A stretch of DNA of 64,000 bases. It comes from Thermococcus barophilus MP. GTDB lineage: Archaea; Methanobacteriota_B; Thermococci; Thermococcales; Thermococcaceae. The stretch's first letter is position 1; every line of letters begins with the position of its first letter. A program made the position numbers and the translations under genes. The notes beneath the pieces were generated by a model. That model made no database searches, was not told the origin of the DNA, and worked only from the letters and a program-made list of their open reading frames with translations. Shown here in pieces: positions 13,261 to 37,578 of this stretch. Location: NCBI RefSeq assembly GCF_000151105.2, contig NC_014804.1:124001-188000 (forward strand), read 5' to 3'.

Positions 13261-13969
13261 GGATTACCGCTTACTCACCGCAGAAAAAGCGGTTGAGCTA
13301 TTCTTAAAGACAATTGAACATGCCAAATTTAAAGGCAGATGGGACAAGAAAAAGGCGATAAAGTTGGCCAAGGAGATGATTCCCGAGTTGCAGGCAATGA
13401 GATACTCATATCTTGATCCCAAGGAACTCATTGATACTCCACAAATGGAGGCTCTTAAAGAGAAAGCCCAAGGGATAATTGAGGCATTAGGTGGAGAGGA
13501 GTGGCATCACAAGTTCTTAAGCTTGGCCGACAAGAGTGAAAAAGAGAAAGTAGAGGAAGCAGTTGCTAAAGTTAGATTTTTCCTCAACACAATACTTAAT
13601 TTGGACAAGAGATTGGCTTTAGGAAAAATCAATGACCCAGTAATTGCCGTGGATATAAAAGTTGGTGAGGTCATGAGCGTAGGAAAGCATCCAAATGCTG
13701 ATAGACTTTTGGTTTGTAATGTGAACATTGGGGATAGAGCGATAACAGTTGTCACAAATGATTTAACAGTCAAAGAAGGGAACAGAGTAGCTGTTGCTTT
13801 GTTACCGCCAGCAAACTTCAGAGGAATTGTCAGCGAAGGAATGTTCCTCGGCGCTGGAGATGGAGTGCTGAAAGATGTGAAAGGAGAAATTGGAGGATTA
13901 CCTAAGGGGATTCCGCTCGATGCCTTGAAGGAGACGAGGAACTTAGTGGAGGCATTCTTAAAAAGCTAA
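13244..13969 (+). CDS. tRNA-binding (EMAP II/MetG C-terminal-like) domain protein
   Basis: A 241-residue protein whose C-terminal half (about 130-235) is the OB-fold tRNA-binding domain of EMAP II, Arc1p and the MetRS C-terminus: [29 protein letters not shown], then [13 protein letters not shown]. The N-terminal about 125 residues are helical with a WHHKF patch, unlike bacterial stand-alone Trbp111. It may deliver tRNA to a partner enzyme. The ATG after GGTGAGGGGA is chosen. It ends tail to tail with the aldo/keto reductase gene, sharing four bases. Confidence 0.8.
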
Positions 13970-14802
13970 ACACATTCTCTCGCTCTCTTTAAATCCTCTT
14001 CACTTAAACGCCAGCCCATAGCACCGAAGTTCTCCTTTAAATGTTCCTTATTGATTGCCTTGGGGATTGCAATTACATTTTCGTGCCAAATTAAATAGTT
14101 CAGTGCAACTTGAGCAGCCGTTTTGCTGTATTTTTCCCCTATTTTGGCTAAGCATGGATTTCGAGCCAACTGTCCCTTTTCCAGCGGTGTGTATGCTATC
14201 AGAGCTATATTCTCCTTTTTCATATATTCAAGAAGGCCTGTTCTTTCAACTCGTCTATCCATGAGGGAATACTTCACTTGGTTTGCTACAATTTCATGTT
14301 TCCTCATAACCTCTTGACTTCTCTTCAAGAGCTCCAAATCAAAGTTGCTGACACCAATGTAGCGTATAATCCCTTCATCAACCAAATCCTCCAGTGCCCA
14401 TAATGTCTCTTTGATCCTCTCAAAATCATCAATTGGCCAGTGGAGCAAATAAAGATCAATATATGTTCCAAGCCTCTTTGCACTGTTCCGAGCAGCTTTC
14501 TTTGCTTTTTCATAACCAAAATTGGTGGGCCAAACTTTGCTGATGATGAAAATGCTATCCCTTTCATATTCCTTAATGGCATTTCCGACTATTTCTTCGC
14601 TATGTCCAGCACCATAGAATTCGGCAGTGTCAATTAGGTTAATTCCTAAATCCAGGCCGTAGCGTAAAGCTTCAACACTCTCTTTGTCTCTTGAATAATC
14701 TGCTCTTTCTCTTCCACCTATTCCCCATGTGCCCATCCCCACCGCTGTAACCTTGTCATCCCCGATTTTCTTTAAGTCGTTAAACGGAATTACCCTCTTC
14801 AC
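13966..14802 (-). CDS. Aldo/keto reductase
   Basis: A roughly 278-residue NAD(P)H-dependent oxidoreductase with a TIM-barrel fold. Catalytic tetrad elements are visible: the Asp in LIDTAEFYG with its Tyr, the Lys in IISKVWP and the His in LYLLHWPID. The cofactor region is [13 protein letters not shown]. The GTG at 14802 sits 5-6 bases after GGGTGA and is preferred to the GTG at 14811, which overlaps that site. The gene is monocistronic and convergent with the tRNA-binding gene. The substrate cannot be told from sequence. Confidence 0.85.
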
Positions 14803-14864
14803 GTCATTCACCCGAAATTAATTTTGTGTTAACATTTATTAATTCAATGATGGAGGTCTCATTG

Positions 14865-14914
14865 ATGATGAATACGGGGCCACCTGAGTGATGATGAAAT
14901 TTCCCCAATGCTGA
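14865..14914 (+). ncRNA. C/D-box sRNA (2'-O-methylation guide)
   Basis: Canonical order is C box ATGATGA (14865-14871), 12-base guide, D' box CTGA (14884-14887), 3-base linker, C' box ATGATGA (14891-14897), 13-base guide, D box CTGA (14911-14914). The overall 50-nt size is typical of thermococcal sRNAs. The D' guide would pair with GTGGCCCCGTAT and the D guide with CATTGGGGAAATT; by the N+5 rule the modified bases would be a C and a G respectively. It lies between the aldo/keto reductase promoter and the RNA ligase gene. The rRNA or tRNA target is not identified here. Confidence 0.82.
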
Positions 14915-14925
14915 TATTCCAAAAA

Positions 14926-14960: not shown

Positions 14961-16109
14961 ATGGAAATGGTAAGCTTGCACTTCAAACATATTCTCCTCA
15001 AGCTTGGGCTTGACAAAGAGAGGATAGAGATCTTGGAAATGAAAGGTGGCATAGTTGAGGATGAATTTGAGGGTTTACGCTATCTTAGGTTTAAAGACTC
15101 AGCGAAAGGCCTAAGAAGAGGAACTGTTGTTTTTAATGAATCCGACATTATTCTTGGGTTTCCTCACATAAAGAGAGTTGTCCATCTAAGAAATGGTGTA
15201 AAGCGAATTTTCAAAAGCAAGCCCTTCTATGTGGAGGAGAAAGTCGATGGGTATAACGTTAGAGTTGCTAAGGTTGGAGAGAAAATTTTAGCTCTAACAA
15301 GAGGCGGTTTTGTTTGTCCGTTTACCACTGAAAGAATTGGGGACTTCATAAACGAGCAGTTCTTCAAAGATCATCCTAATTTAATTCTCTGCGGTGAGAT
15401 GGCAGGTCCAGAGAGCCCATATTTAGTAGAAGGCCCGCCATATGTTGAGGAGGACATTCAGTTTTTCCTCTTCGATATTCAAGAAAAAAGAACTGGAAGG
15501 AGCATACCAGTTGAGGAAAGGATAAAGCTGGCTGAAGAATACGGTATTCAGAGCGTTGAAATCTTTGGTCTTTATAGCTATGAAAAAATTGATGAGCTTT
15601 ATGAGCTGATTGAGAGGCTCAGCAAAGAGGGGCGAGAAGGAGTAGTCATGAAAAGTCCGGATATGAAGAAAATCGTGAAGTATGTAACGCCCTATGCAAA
15701 TGTTAACGACATAAAGATTGGCTCAAGGATTTTCTTTGATTTGCCTCATGGCTACTTCATGCAGCGCATAAAGAGGTTGGCATTTTATATTGCAGAGAAG
15801 CGCATAAGGAGAGAAGACTTTGATGAGTATGCAAAAGCCCTTGGAAAAGCTTTGCTCCAGCCCTTTGTGGAGTCAATATGGGACGTTGCAGCTGGTGAGA
15901 TGATTGCTGAGATTTTCACGGTTAGGGTAAAGAAGATTGAAACCGCTTATAAGATGGTATCCCATTTCGAAAGGATGGGGCTTAACATCCATATTGATGA
16001 TATTGAGGAACTTGGCAACGGCTATTGGAAGATTACATTCAAGAGGGTTTATGACGATGCAACTAAGGAAATCAGAGAGCTTTGGAACGGGCATGCTTTT
16101 GTGGACTAA
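14961..16109 (+). CDS. ATP-dependent RNA ligase, archaeal Rnl3 (Pab1020-like) family
   Basis: A 382-residue RNA ligase like the Pyrococcus abyssi Pab1020 and Methanothermobacter enzymes, which adenylylate a lysine and join or circularise RNA ends. The nucleotidyltransferase motif I EEKVDGYNVRV places the reactive Lys at residue 94; further motifs include LCGEMAGPESPY, FFLFDIQ and EGVVMKSPDMKKIVKYV (motif V). The C-terminal about 130 residues form the helical dimerisation part. The Pab1020 enzyme has been linked to circular RNAs including C/D sRNAs in Pyrococcus, and such an sRNA lies 46 bases upstream here. A second start at 14967 is possible. Confidence 0.93.
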   Translation: MEMVSLHFKHILLKLGLDKERIEILEMKGGIVEDEFEGLRYLRFKDSAKGLRRGTVVFNESDIILGFPHIKRVVHLRNGVKRIFKSKPFYVEEKVDGYNVRVAKVGEKILALTRGGFVCPFTTERIGDFINEQFFKDHPNLILCGEMAGPESPYLVEGPPYVEEDIQFFLFDIQEKRTGRSIPVEERIKLAEEYGIQSVEIFGLYSYEKIDELYELIERLSKEGREGVVMKSPDMKKIVKYVTPYANVNDIKIGSRIFFDLPHGYFMQRIKRLAFYIAEKRIRREDFDEYAKALGKALLQPFVESIWDVAAGEMIAEIFTVRVKKIETAYKMVSHFERMGLNIHIDDIEELGNGYWKITFKRVYDDATKEIRELWNGHAFVD

Positions 16110-34902: not shown

Positions 34903-35280
34903 ATGTATGCCGAAAACTATAAAAGATTCGAACTGCTGATAGATAAATTGCGAGAGTTTGATGGTGCTATCATCGTGGAAGGTTTGCGAGACGAGGTGGC
35001 TTTAAGGAAATTGGGGGTCAGAGCGGAGATAATAAGGCTCTCACGCTTACCGCTCTCAGAAGTGGCTTTAATTGCTTCACAGTATCATGAGGTCATGATA
35101 TTAACTGATTTGGACAGAAAAGGTGAAGAGTTGGCGAAAAAGCTGACTCAGTATTTGGAAGGCTATAAATGCAGAGTAGATACAGAGACAAGAAAAGAAC
35201 TCAAAATGATTGCAAAAAAGGACATTAAGGGCATTGAGGACTTGTATGGGCTCTACACTAAAGTCACTCTCCGTTTCTGA
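34903..35280 (+). CDS. Small Toprim domain protein
   Basis: A 125-residue single-domain Toprim protein. GAIIVEGLRDEVALRKLG (about 20-37) gives the catalytic-type Glu, and VMILTDLDRKGEELAKKL (about 65-82) gives the DxD-like motif. Bacterial relatives (RNase M5) process 5S rRNA; archaeal ones are uncharacterised. It lies just upstream of dnaG, another Toprim protein, so the two may be co-transcribed. Confidence 0.82.
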   Translation: MYAENYKRFELLIDKLREFDGAIIVEGLRDEVALRKLGVRAEIIRLSRLPLSEVALIASQYHEVMILTDLDRKGEELAKKLTQYLEGYKCRVDTETRKELKMIAKKDIKGIEDLYGLYTKVTLRF

Positions 35281-35380
35281 CCCCCTTAAGGAGGGGATTT
35301 CCTTGAAAAGAAAAAGGACAGTGCTCCAACATATTTTGTCGGAAAAGCAAAAGTTTGAAAAAAGAAAGGTAGGTGGGAAC

Positions 35381-36682
35381 ATGTCAGCAAAGGACGATTT
35401 TGGAACAACTAAATATGTGATCTATGCTGAATTTGAGGCAAATGGAGTTGTTGAAAGACCTGACGTTGTTGGGGCTATTTTTGGTCAAACTGAGGGGCTA
35501 CTTGGAGACGATTTAGATTTAAGAGAGCTCCAAAAGACTGGTAGAATTGGAAGGATAAAAGTTGAAGTTCACACAAAGGCTGGAAAAACATACGGAACAA
35601 TTACAGTGCCATCAAGTCTTGATAGAGTCGAGACAGCAATCTTAGCGGCTGCACTGGAAACAATAGATAGGGTTGGGCCATGTGAGGCAAGGATTAAAGT
35701 GATAAAAATCGAAGATGTTAGGGCAACAAAGAGGAAATACATCATTGAGAGAGCTAAGGAAATACTTGAAACGCTCATGGAGGAGGAAATTCCGGAGAGC
35801 CAAGAGCTCACTGAAGAAGTCAAAAAGGCAGTCAGGGCAAAGGAGCTCATTGAATATGGTCCCGAAAAATTACCAGCTGGGCCTCATGTGCCGTTCTCAG
35901 ACTCAATTATCGTCGTTGAGGGAAGAGCTGATGTGCTTAACCTTCTCAAGCACGGAATAAAGAATGCCATTGCCGTTGAGGGAACTTCAGTTCCAGAGAC
36001 AATTATCAGACTGAGCAAGGAAAGAATTGTAACGGCATTTACAGATGGAGACAGAGGTGGAGAGCTTATCCTTAAGGAGTTGCTGCAAGTTGCCGATATT
36101 GATTACGTAGCAAGAGCGCCAGAGGGAAAGGAAGTTGAGGAGCTTACAAAGAAAGAGATAATAAAAGCTTTGAGGAGCAAAGTACCAGCAGAGCAGGTTA
36201 TAAATGAGCTGTTCTACAAAGGCAAAAGCTTCTATGATTTAATCAAGGAAAAAGAGAGAGAAAAGTCTGAAGAAACAAGAAAGGAGGAAGTTAGAGTAGA
36301 GAAGCCCCCTGTTGCAGTTAAAGAGGAGGGAAAAGAAGCAAGAGTCGAACAAAAGAGGGAAGAGAGATTTATAAAGCCGATTCAGGTTCCAAAAGCAGCA
36401 GAACTTGAGAAATTCAAGGAATTCGTCGAAAAAGTGAAAAACAATTCAATGGCTATCTTGCTGGATGAGGATAGAAACGTCATTGCGGAAATACCGGTTA
36501 GAGATCTACTTAGCTCTTTAAATGACAAAGAGGGGATACATGCAATAATATTCAACGGCATAATAACGCAGAGGTTAATTGACATTGTAAGTGAAAAGGG
36601 TGTCAAATACTTAATTGGGGCAAGAAAGGCAAATGTAGTCAGAAGACCAGTTGATTTGAAGATCATTACCTTTGCTGAGTGA
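35381..36682 (+). CDS. dnaG: DnaG-type primase/exosome-associated protein
   Basis: A 433-residue archaeal DnaG. The conserved N-terminal domain (GTTKYVIYAEFEANGVVERPDVVGAIFGQTEGLLG) is followed by the Toprim domain (SIIVVEGRADVLNLLKHG, TDGDRGGELILKELL) and a variable Glu/Lys linker, then a C-terminal VNL-like domain. In archaea DnaG binds the exosome and supplies poly(A) specificity as well as primase-like activity. The ATG after GGTAGGTGGGAAC is used; an in-frame TTG at 35303 behind GGAGGGG would add 26 basic residues and cannot be excluded. Confidence 0.93.
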   Translation: MSAKDDFGTTKYVIYAEFEANGVVERPDVVGAIFGQTEGLLGDDLDLRELQKTGRIGRIKVEVHTKAGKTYGTITVPSSLDRVETAILAAALETIDRVGPCEARIKVIKIEDVRATKRKYIIERAKEILETLMEEEIPESQELTEEVKKAVRAKELIEYGPEKLPAGPHVPFSDSIIVVEGRADVLNLLKHGIKNAIAVEGTSVPETIIRLSKERIVTAFTDGDRGGELILKELLQVADIDYVARAPEGKEVEELTKKEIIKALRSKVPAEQVINELFYKGKSFYDLIKEKEREKSEETRKEEVRVEKPPVAVKEEGKEARVEQKREERFIKPIQVPKAAELEKFKEFVEKVKNNSMAILLDEDRNVIAEIPVRDLLSSLNDKEGIHAIIFNGIITQRLIDIVSEKGVKYLIGARKANVVRRPVDLKIITFAE

Positions 36683-36699
36683 TTTTTATTTATTTCGCC

Positions 36700-36749
36700 T
36701 CAGCTAACCCTCTTTTCTTCATCAATTCAGAGTGGCTAACGATCATCAT
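36700..36749 (-). ncRNA. C/D-box sRNA, minus strand
   Basis: Read on the minus strand: C box ATGATGA (36749-36743), 12-base guide TCGTTAGCCACT, D' box CTGA (36730-36727), a 1-base gap, C' TTGATGA (36725-36719), 15-base guide, D box CTGA (36703-36700). Predicted target complements are AGTGGCTAACGA (D') and CTAACCCTCTTTTCT (D). The C' box has one deviation, which is common. It lies between dnaG and tmk, divergent from the next sRNA. Confidence 0.75.
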
Positions 36750-36791
36750 TGGCTAAGAGTTTTTAAAGAAAAGAGAATTAAAAGCTTTGGG

Positions 36792-36840
36792 ATGATGTGC
36801 GTTTACCGGTCTGAGCTGTGATGATATCGGCACTGTCTGA
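36792..36840 (+). ncRNA. C/D-box sRNA, plus strand
   Basis: C box ATGATGT (36792-36798, last base off consensus), 12-base guide GCGTTTACCGGT, D' box CTGA (36811-36814), 3-base linker, C' GTGATGA (36818-36824), 12-base guide TATCGGCACTGT, D box CTGA (36837-36840). The two exact 12-base guides are the archaeal standard. Target complements would be ACCGGTAAACGC and ACAGTGCCGATA. It ends at the 3' end of tmk, which runs toward it. Confidence 0.82.
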
Positions 36841-36841
36841 C

Positions 36842-37471
36842 CTATTCTTTTTTGTTTAAAATTTCATGTTCAACTAACGCAACTATATCATTGTGTATGT
36901 CCTCAATTGATGCAAGAGCATTTACAATTTTCATTTCTGGGAACATTTCAACGAGTTTAAGGTAGTTCTCTCTGACCTTTTTTTGTAGCTCTGCTATTCT
37001 ATCAAACTCAGATTTTAGCTGTCTTCCATTTATCCTTTTCATACTCTCTTTAACAGGTAAGTCAAGGAGGATCACCAAATCTGGTCTGATTGCAAATTTG
37101 TTCAGATTTATAAGCCATTCCAAATCTAAACCACGGGCCCATTGATAAGCAAGGGAGGAATAGAAATATCTATCTGAGATTACAACTTTTCCAGTCCTAA
37201 GGGAGGGTTCTATTAATTTCTTCACATGCTCGGCCCTGTCAGCAGCGAACAAAAGGGCTTCAGCCTCATGGCTTATCTTTGCCCCATCTATAATACCCTC
37301 CCTGCCCCCTGTCAGAACGAGTTTTCGTATCAGTTTTCCAAATGCCGTATCTGTTGGTTCTTTTGTTAATACCACGTTATATCCTCTCTTTTCAAACCAT
37401 TTTGCCAGTAATTTTGCTTGTGTTGACTTGCCTGCACCATCAATGCCTTCTATCACGATGAAAATACCCAC
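36842..37471 (-). CDS. tmk: Thymidylate kinase
   Basis: A 209-residue dTMP kinase with Walker [11 protein letters not shown] (residues about 8-17), the DR motif in [13 protein letters not shown] and a lid region following. It makes dTDP for DNA synthesis. The GTG at 37471 stands 6 bases after GGAGGTG, and an ATG 18 bases upstream would overlap that site, so GTG is chosen. The 3' end almost touches the plus-strand sRNA. Confidence 0.93.
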
Positions 37472-37578
37472 AGCTGACACCTCCATGATCAAAACAACTG
37501 CATATGCTTAAATCTTAAAGTGAACATTTTGTTTTTAATCCTTTTTGCCAAGGTAAGAAATTAAATAGAACCAGGATA

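Follow-up and report, generated by a model that had tools for sequence, protein, structure and literature searches.

Genes and RNAs at the locus

The window is the whole stretch of DNA that was analysed, 64,000 nt in length. It contains two C/D sRNA genes between dnaG and tmk. The first is sR34 (RF01273), which lies on the minus strand at 36698-36753. It was recovered by an Rfam scan with 66.9 bits (E 2.3e-10; gathering threshold 40). The second is sR12 (RF01147), which lies on the plus strand at 36790-36841. It scored 60 bits (E 7.6e-10; gathering threshold 38) and 45.9 bits under the settings of the whole-genome scan. Both matches span the full length of their models and exceed the curated thresholds.

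Both RNAs encode C (RUGAUGA), D', C', and D (CUGA) boxes in that order and are of the size of the class (about 50-70 nt). sR34 has its C box at 36749-36743, followed by the D' guide TCGTTAGCCACT, the D' and C' boxes, the D guide AAAGAGGGTTAG, and the D box at 36703-36700. sR12 has its C box at 36792-36798, the D' guide GCGTTTACCGGT, the D guide TATCGGCACTGT, and the D box at 36837-36840. A strict C-D'-C'-D pattern matched three times in the window, compared with a mean of 0 in 20 simulated first-order Markov windows. The matches were sR34, sR12, and a third RNA at 14865-14914. This third RNA is sR35 in the Rfam scan (14861-14916, plus strand, 74.6 bits). It sits between divergent ORFs, one on the minus strand at 13966-14811 and one on the plus strand at 14961-16109; the latter begins about 45 bases downstream of sR35.

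The neighbours on both sides are convergent with the RNAs. The dnaG gene is on the plus strand at 35210-36682 and faces sR34; its ORF is given as listed from the first start, and the DnaG profile NF003108 covers residues 68-487. The tmk gene (thymidylate kinase; PF02223, TIGR00041) is on the minus strand at 36842-37492 and faces sR12. Because the 3' ends of the RNAs adjoin the ends of these neighbours, the interval from dnaG to tmk is taken up by sR34 and sR12.

An earlier sequence-only reading had proposed two divergent C/D sRNAs with 12-nt D' guides here, separated by 42 bases. Rfam confirms the place and the strands, the strict pattern recovers the four boxes in both RNAs, and the D' guides are 12 nt long. 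The 42 bases (36750-36791) are exact between the C boxes, with the sR34 box reaching to 36749 and the sR12 box starting at 36792. The gap between the two Rfam matches is 36 bases.

Guides and predicted targets

Guides were scored against the 16S and 23S rRNA located in the same genome, with 300 shuffled guides each as controls. The sR12 D' guide forms 11 contiguous Watson-Crick pairs with 23S rRNA and places N+5 at G2004 (8 of 300 shuffled guides equalled its score). The sR34 D guide forms 10 contiguous pairs and places N+5 at C2027 (15/300). The sR12 D guide scores 10.5 of 12 and places N+5 at U1963 (26/300). Single-guide scores are modestly above those of shuffled guides, and each single assignment is made with moderate confidence from the pairing. 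The three predicted sites all lie in domain IV, within 65 nt of one another. Of the target strings named by the sequence-only reading, ACCGGTAAACGC and ACAGTGCCGATA match 23S rRNA; AGTGGCTAACGA has no rRNA or tRNA match. That reading omitted the D guide of sR34, the only guide of this RNA with a target.

C/D sRNPs consist of L7Ae, Nop5, and fibrillarin on a C/D RNA. Each of the two RNAs would assemble into such a particle and direct 2'-O-methylation by the N+5 rule. Judged from pairing, sR12 would modify U1963 and G2004 and sR34 would modify C2027 of 23S rRNA, in helices 68 and 69 of domain IV. An alignment to the 2906-nt E. coli 23S gene places these residues at 1843, 1899, and 1922. In standard E. 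coli numbering they would be approximately U1841, G1897, and C1920. C1920 is presumably the position methylated by TlyA in some bacteria. The standard numbers are two lower because the accessible part of PMC4644070 has A1912, which it places in helix 69, and local position 1912 is a G. The accessible parts of PMC4644070 and PMC7994747 count helices 68, 69, and 71 as hotspots of methylation in archaea.

Complementarity to rRNA or tRNA is expected of archaeal C/D guides. It was found in three of the four guides and not in the sR34 D' guide. Against 16S and 23S rRNA of the same genome, the latter reached at best 9.0 over 12 nt, below the shuffled mean of 9.57, and 294 of 300 shuffled guides were as good. 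It had no good match among 45 distinct tRNA sequences, a few of which may be flanking or repeated predictions because the loci overlap. Its perfect 10-mer target GTGGCTAACG occurs a single time in the genome, in sR34 itself on the other strand. A G-U-tolerant search of the genome retrieved 36 sites, compared with 61 for a reversed control pattern. None of the other 35 sites lies in a known RNA family; at L167, a snoR9 match (292-401) is off the site (about 193-202). This guide may have an mRNA target. Its core CGTTAGCCAC is present in all 61 sR34 loci, of which 25 had been fetched with a pattern containing CGTTAGCCAC; the unbiased count is 36 of the 36 genomes found via Rfam.

Internal pairing of the sR34 guides was considered as a cause of the D' conservation and is unsupported. 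The duplex has -8.5 kcal/mol (92 of 1000 shuffled as good), and the whole-RNA fold has a z of -1.58.

We also retrieved sR34-like sRNAs from five loci (L066, L067, L068, L069, and L071, each near position 1500), and four of the five reach the Rfam sR34 threshold. A few bases separate them from the start codon of a downstream gene beginning MERYVLLLK or similar. They were considered as additional copies of the same guide. They share the sR34 boxes but encode other guides and are thus distinct sRNAs.

Predicted promoters in the window

The gap was scanned with a 16-nt BRE/TATA matrix trained on the upstream stretches of 34 tRNA genes from the same genome, 10 of which themselves score 9.0 or less. 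The candidate element for sR12, CTAAGAGTTTTTAAAG, is on the plus strand at 36753-36768 and ends 21 nt before sR12. Its score is 9.0, which corresponds to 5e-4 per position with the rest of the window as background. The candidate element for sR34, CCCAAAGCTTTTAATT, is on the minus strand at 36776-36791, in a cluster at 36791-36775, and ends 22 nt before sR34. It scores 10.8 (2.5e-4 per position). Between 36690 and 36850, no elements were found at P<0.005 per position beyond this one plus site and one minus cluster. The spacings of 21-22 nt agree with the median TATA distance of 23 nt given for T. kodakarensis in the available text of PMC4247193.

The two TATAs are 16 nt apart and interleaved, and the promoters together take up about 39 bp. 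The BRE of each promoter falls on the first bases of the opposite sRNA gene; in the sR34 element, it is the BRE half that overlaps sR12.

The orthologous pair in T. kodakarensis is known from RNA. The available part of PMC9014305 (Table 1) gives two of its C/D RNAs as circular, sR41 (1226838-1226899) and sR42 (1226948-1227017), together with their predicted starts, 1226903 and 1226948, which are taken from Jager et al. 2014. In genome G030, we matched sR34 at 1226844-1226898 (minus) and the sR12 core at 1226962-1226974 (plus). Since these matches fall on the published sR41 and sR42 positions, G030 is on T. kodakarensis coordinates. The expectation of the sequence-only reading that both promoters lie within the gap is thus borne out by an element on each strand and by the predicted starts and circular RNAs of this pair (PMC9014305, as available).

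sR34 and sR12 very probably are guide RNA genes that diverge from two interleaved BRE/TATA promoters and direct 2'-O-methylation of 23S domain IV. The RNAs would be transcribed outward from these promoters, and their 3' ends would adjoin the ends of the convergent neighbours. Because each BRE overlaps the start of the other gene, the geometry suggests that the two initiation complexes are mutually exclusive, so that sR34 and sR12 would fire alternately. A literature search, mostly of papers open without subscription and of their main texts, retrieved no paper on the promoter of the divergent sR34/sR12 pair. The interleaved promoters had escaped the sequence-only reading, as had the convergence of both RNAs on one rRNA region and the other layouts in relatives.

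Distribution in relatives

We examined 61 genomes, 37 from the same family and 24 from outside it. sR34 was recovered with Rfam from 36 of them, all within the family (36/37, against 0/24 outside). The sole family genome with no match is G035, which is 77% complete. The sR12 core is present in 28 of the 61 genomes, all within the family, and adjoins sR34 head to head in each. Searched for in the 37 family genomes, it was absent from nine (G009, G010, G014, G018, G022, G025, G031, G034, and G035). G022, G025, G031, and G034 have lost sR12 and retain the gap sequence.

With 25 loci from MAGs added to the 36 genomes, the set contained 61 sR34 loci, of which 49 encode both genes. At least five of the MAG loci (L086, L087, L092, L099, and L100) appear to copy genomes already counted. 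Box loss in close relatives, which the sequence-only reading had named as evidence against itself, was looked for, and boxes and guides are kept. The boxes are present in the 61 sR34 loci, with CCGA as the D box in 29 of them, and in the 45 of 49 sR12 loci that could be parsed. The other four fell outside the parsing pattern and were excluded from the box counts; their boxes show the GAATGA start.

The left neighbour is dnaG in genus g1 only. The right neighbour is tmk in most rows of g1, g3, and g6 and a different gene in g2 and some others; in g2 we take it to be glycine dehydrogenase subunit 2. In g4 and two g5 genomes, tmk adjoins sR34 instead. Because the neighbours change, the sR34-sR12 pair is seen to travel as a unit.

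Gap-length classes and alternative transcription models

The gap lengths of the 49 loci with both genes fall into four classes: 35-37 nt (n = 18), 50-53 nt (n = 26), 80 nt (n = 2), and 2 nt (n = 3). None of the 49 has a gap of 38-49 nt.

(a) 35-37 nt. Both matrix elements are present at the same spacing in 16 of the 18 loci; three of the 18 are MAG copies of counted genomes. The exceptions are G007 and G028.

(b) 50-53 nt. The 26 loci contain one central TATA, with a plus-strand match in all of them. The minus-strand element is weak (P 0.0016-0.017, with P<0.002 in 2 of 26), and the sR34 promoter in this class therefore depends on the published start site.

(c) 80 nt. The gaps of G026 and G029 contain CGCCCTGAAGGGCGAGGTTTTC or a one-mismatch copy of it, a dispersed repeat with 5 and 6 sites in those genomes. 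The repeat CGCCCTRAAGGGYGAGG (G026:C1:532326-532347; G029:C1:1336350-1336371) shifts one promoter away from sR34. We assume that it resembles the ends of IS200/IS605 elements. The G007 gap has ends similar to those of G026 and G029 and does not contain the repeat.

(d) 2 nt. G012, G020, and G023 have intact boxes and guides. In G012, two convergent protein genes are 108 nt apart, and sR34, the 2-nt gap, and sR12 take up all of that distance. In this class, the sRNAs themselves contain no matrix match, and there is none in the 260 nt on the minus-strand side. G020 and G023, and not G012, have a plus-strand match inside the end of the left gene. Because no promoter fits a 2-nt gap, the plus precursor would cross sR34 in antisense and the minus precursor would cross sR12 in antisense. 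The precursors may come from read-through of the convergent mRNA or from a start inside the left gene.

The layout in (b) bears on an alternative in which a single TATA is read both ways, in the manner of the P. furiosus BRE-TATA-BRE promoters, with one of the two RNAs originally a by-product. The accessible text of PMC6640164 describes paired P. furiosus TSSs that lie about 49-50 bp from each other and share one TATA; one such promoter was confirmed in vitro. T. kodakarensis has the same arrangement: 44 bases separate its predicted starts (45 bp apart), and the centre of a single TTTTAAAA lies 21.5 and 23.5 nt from them. The 26 of 49 loci in (b) also have their one central TATA. Starts 45-50 bp apart are expected of such a promoter and are found in T. 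kodakarensis, but those predicted for the window are about 32-36 nt apart, and one TATA could not be about 23 nt from both. The matrix also shows two elements in the window, 16 nt apart. The single-TATA arrangement thus suits the 50-53 nt class, and for the window we consider it improbable.

We give still less credence to the possibility that sR12 or sR34 is freed from longer transcripts, by read-through of dnaG or tmk, with the elements in the gap unused. According to the available part of PMC4247193, T. kodakarensis frees several of its snoRNAs from 5' UTRs, from coding sequence, or from a transcript shared with a tRNA. The three related genomes with a 2-nt gap seem bound to depend on read-through or on a promoter outside the gap. 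However, two well-placed elements are kept in 16 of the 18 short-gap loci, and the starts published for T. kodakarensis lie at the edges of the gap (PMC9014305, as available).

With two interleaved promoters retained as the reading for the window, the classes may form a series in promoter evolution. It would run from interleaved TATAs (35-37 nt) to a single palindromic TATA used by both genes (50-53 nt), then to a gap interrupted by a dispersed-repeat element (80 nt), and finally to the promoter being lost altogether (2 nt). In the last class, the guides would be cut from precursors that carry the full antisense of the other guide. We propose this series tentatively and think it somewhat more likely to be wrong than right. 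If it is true, two essential-looking rRNA guides are made from mutually complementary precursors in the 2-nt genomes.

The 3' end of sR12

The D box of sR12 ends at 36840, and positions 36842-36844 are complementary to the tmk stop codon. The sR42 circle of T. kodakarensis extends 8 nt beyond its D box, and its final base is complementary to the third stop-codon base of the neighbouring gene. By the same distance, the 3' tail of mature sR12 is predicted to overlap the end of tmk at 36842-36848, a few bases in all (about 3-7 nt). The sequence-only reading had suggested that the sR12 3' end is antisense to tmk. By the T. kodakarensis analogy this is plausible, and its size would be tiny, the stop codon and a few bases. 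For several g2 rows, distances from the D box to the stop codon of the neighbour were read straight from sequence.

A T-rich run, TTCTTTTTTG, is present at 36845-36855, just past sR12 and within the last tmk codons of the opposite strand. It is a possible sR12 terminator.

sR12 almost certainly does not act chiefly as an antisense regulator of tmk: it adjoins tmk in most genera, but the predicted overlap is about 3-7 nt, and where a cluster 1 gene is the neighbour instead, as it is in some genomes and in the Pyrococcus-like genus g2, the guides stay the same.

Significance

The locus contains ordinary members of known sRNA families with an informative promoter architecture. The RNAs were already catalogued, and the functional addition is little beyond their assignment to 23S helices 68-69. 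The paired layout of the RNAs is conserved across the family, and the useful part is the arrangement of the promoters. An always-needed RNA pair shows discrete, repeated solutions for two archaeal promoters in 35-53 bp, and one lineage has no promoter left between sR34 and sR12. What makes the locus interesting is the way relatives share the sR34/sR12 promoter, space it differently, or lose it. Genetically tractable Thermococcales offer a way to test promoter exclusion, TATA sharing, and processing from antisense precursors. The invariant sR34 D' guide, with no target found in the searches above, is a second, small question.

Comparison with known systems

The window RNAs differ in no way from the Rfam families RF01273 and RF01147. 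These families are defined per RNA and are silent on the paired layout.

The closest counterpart is the Tko-sR41/Tko-sR42 pair. It is orthologous and divergent, as in the window, and adds published circular RNAs. In T. kodakarensis, the genes are 52 nt apart and a single TATA lies in the middle, whereas the window has a 36-nt gap with two interleaved TATAs.

The bidirectional promoters of P. furiosus, as described in the accessible part of PMC6640164, resemble the T. kodakarensis pair and the 50-53 nt class in geometry. One of their products is read there as a non-functional antisense RNA. In the window, both products are conserved guide RNAs, and there are two TATAs.
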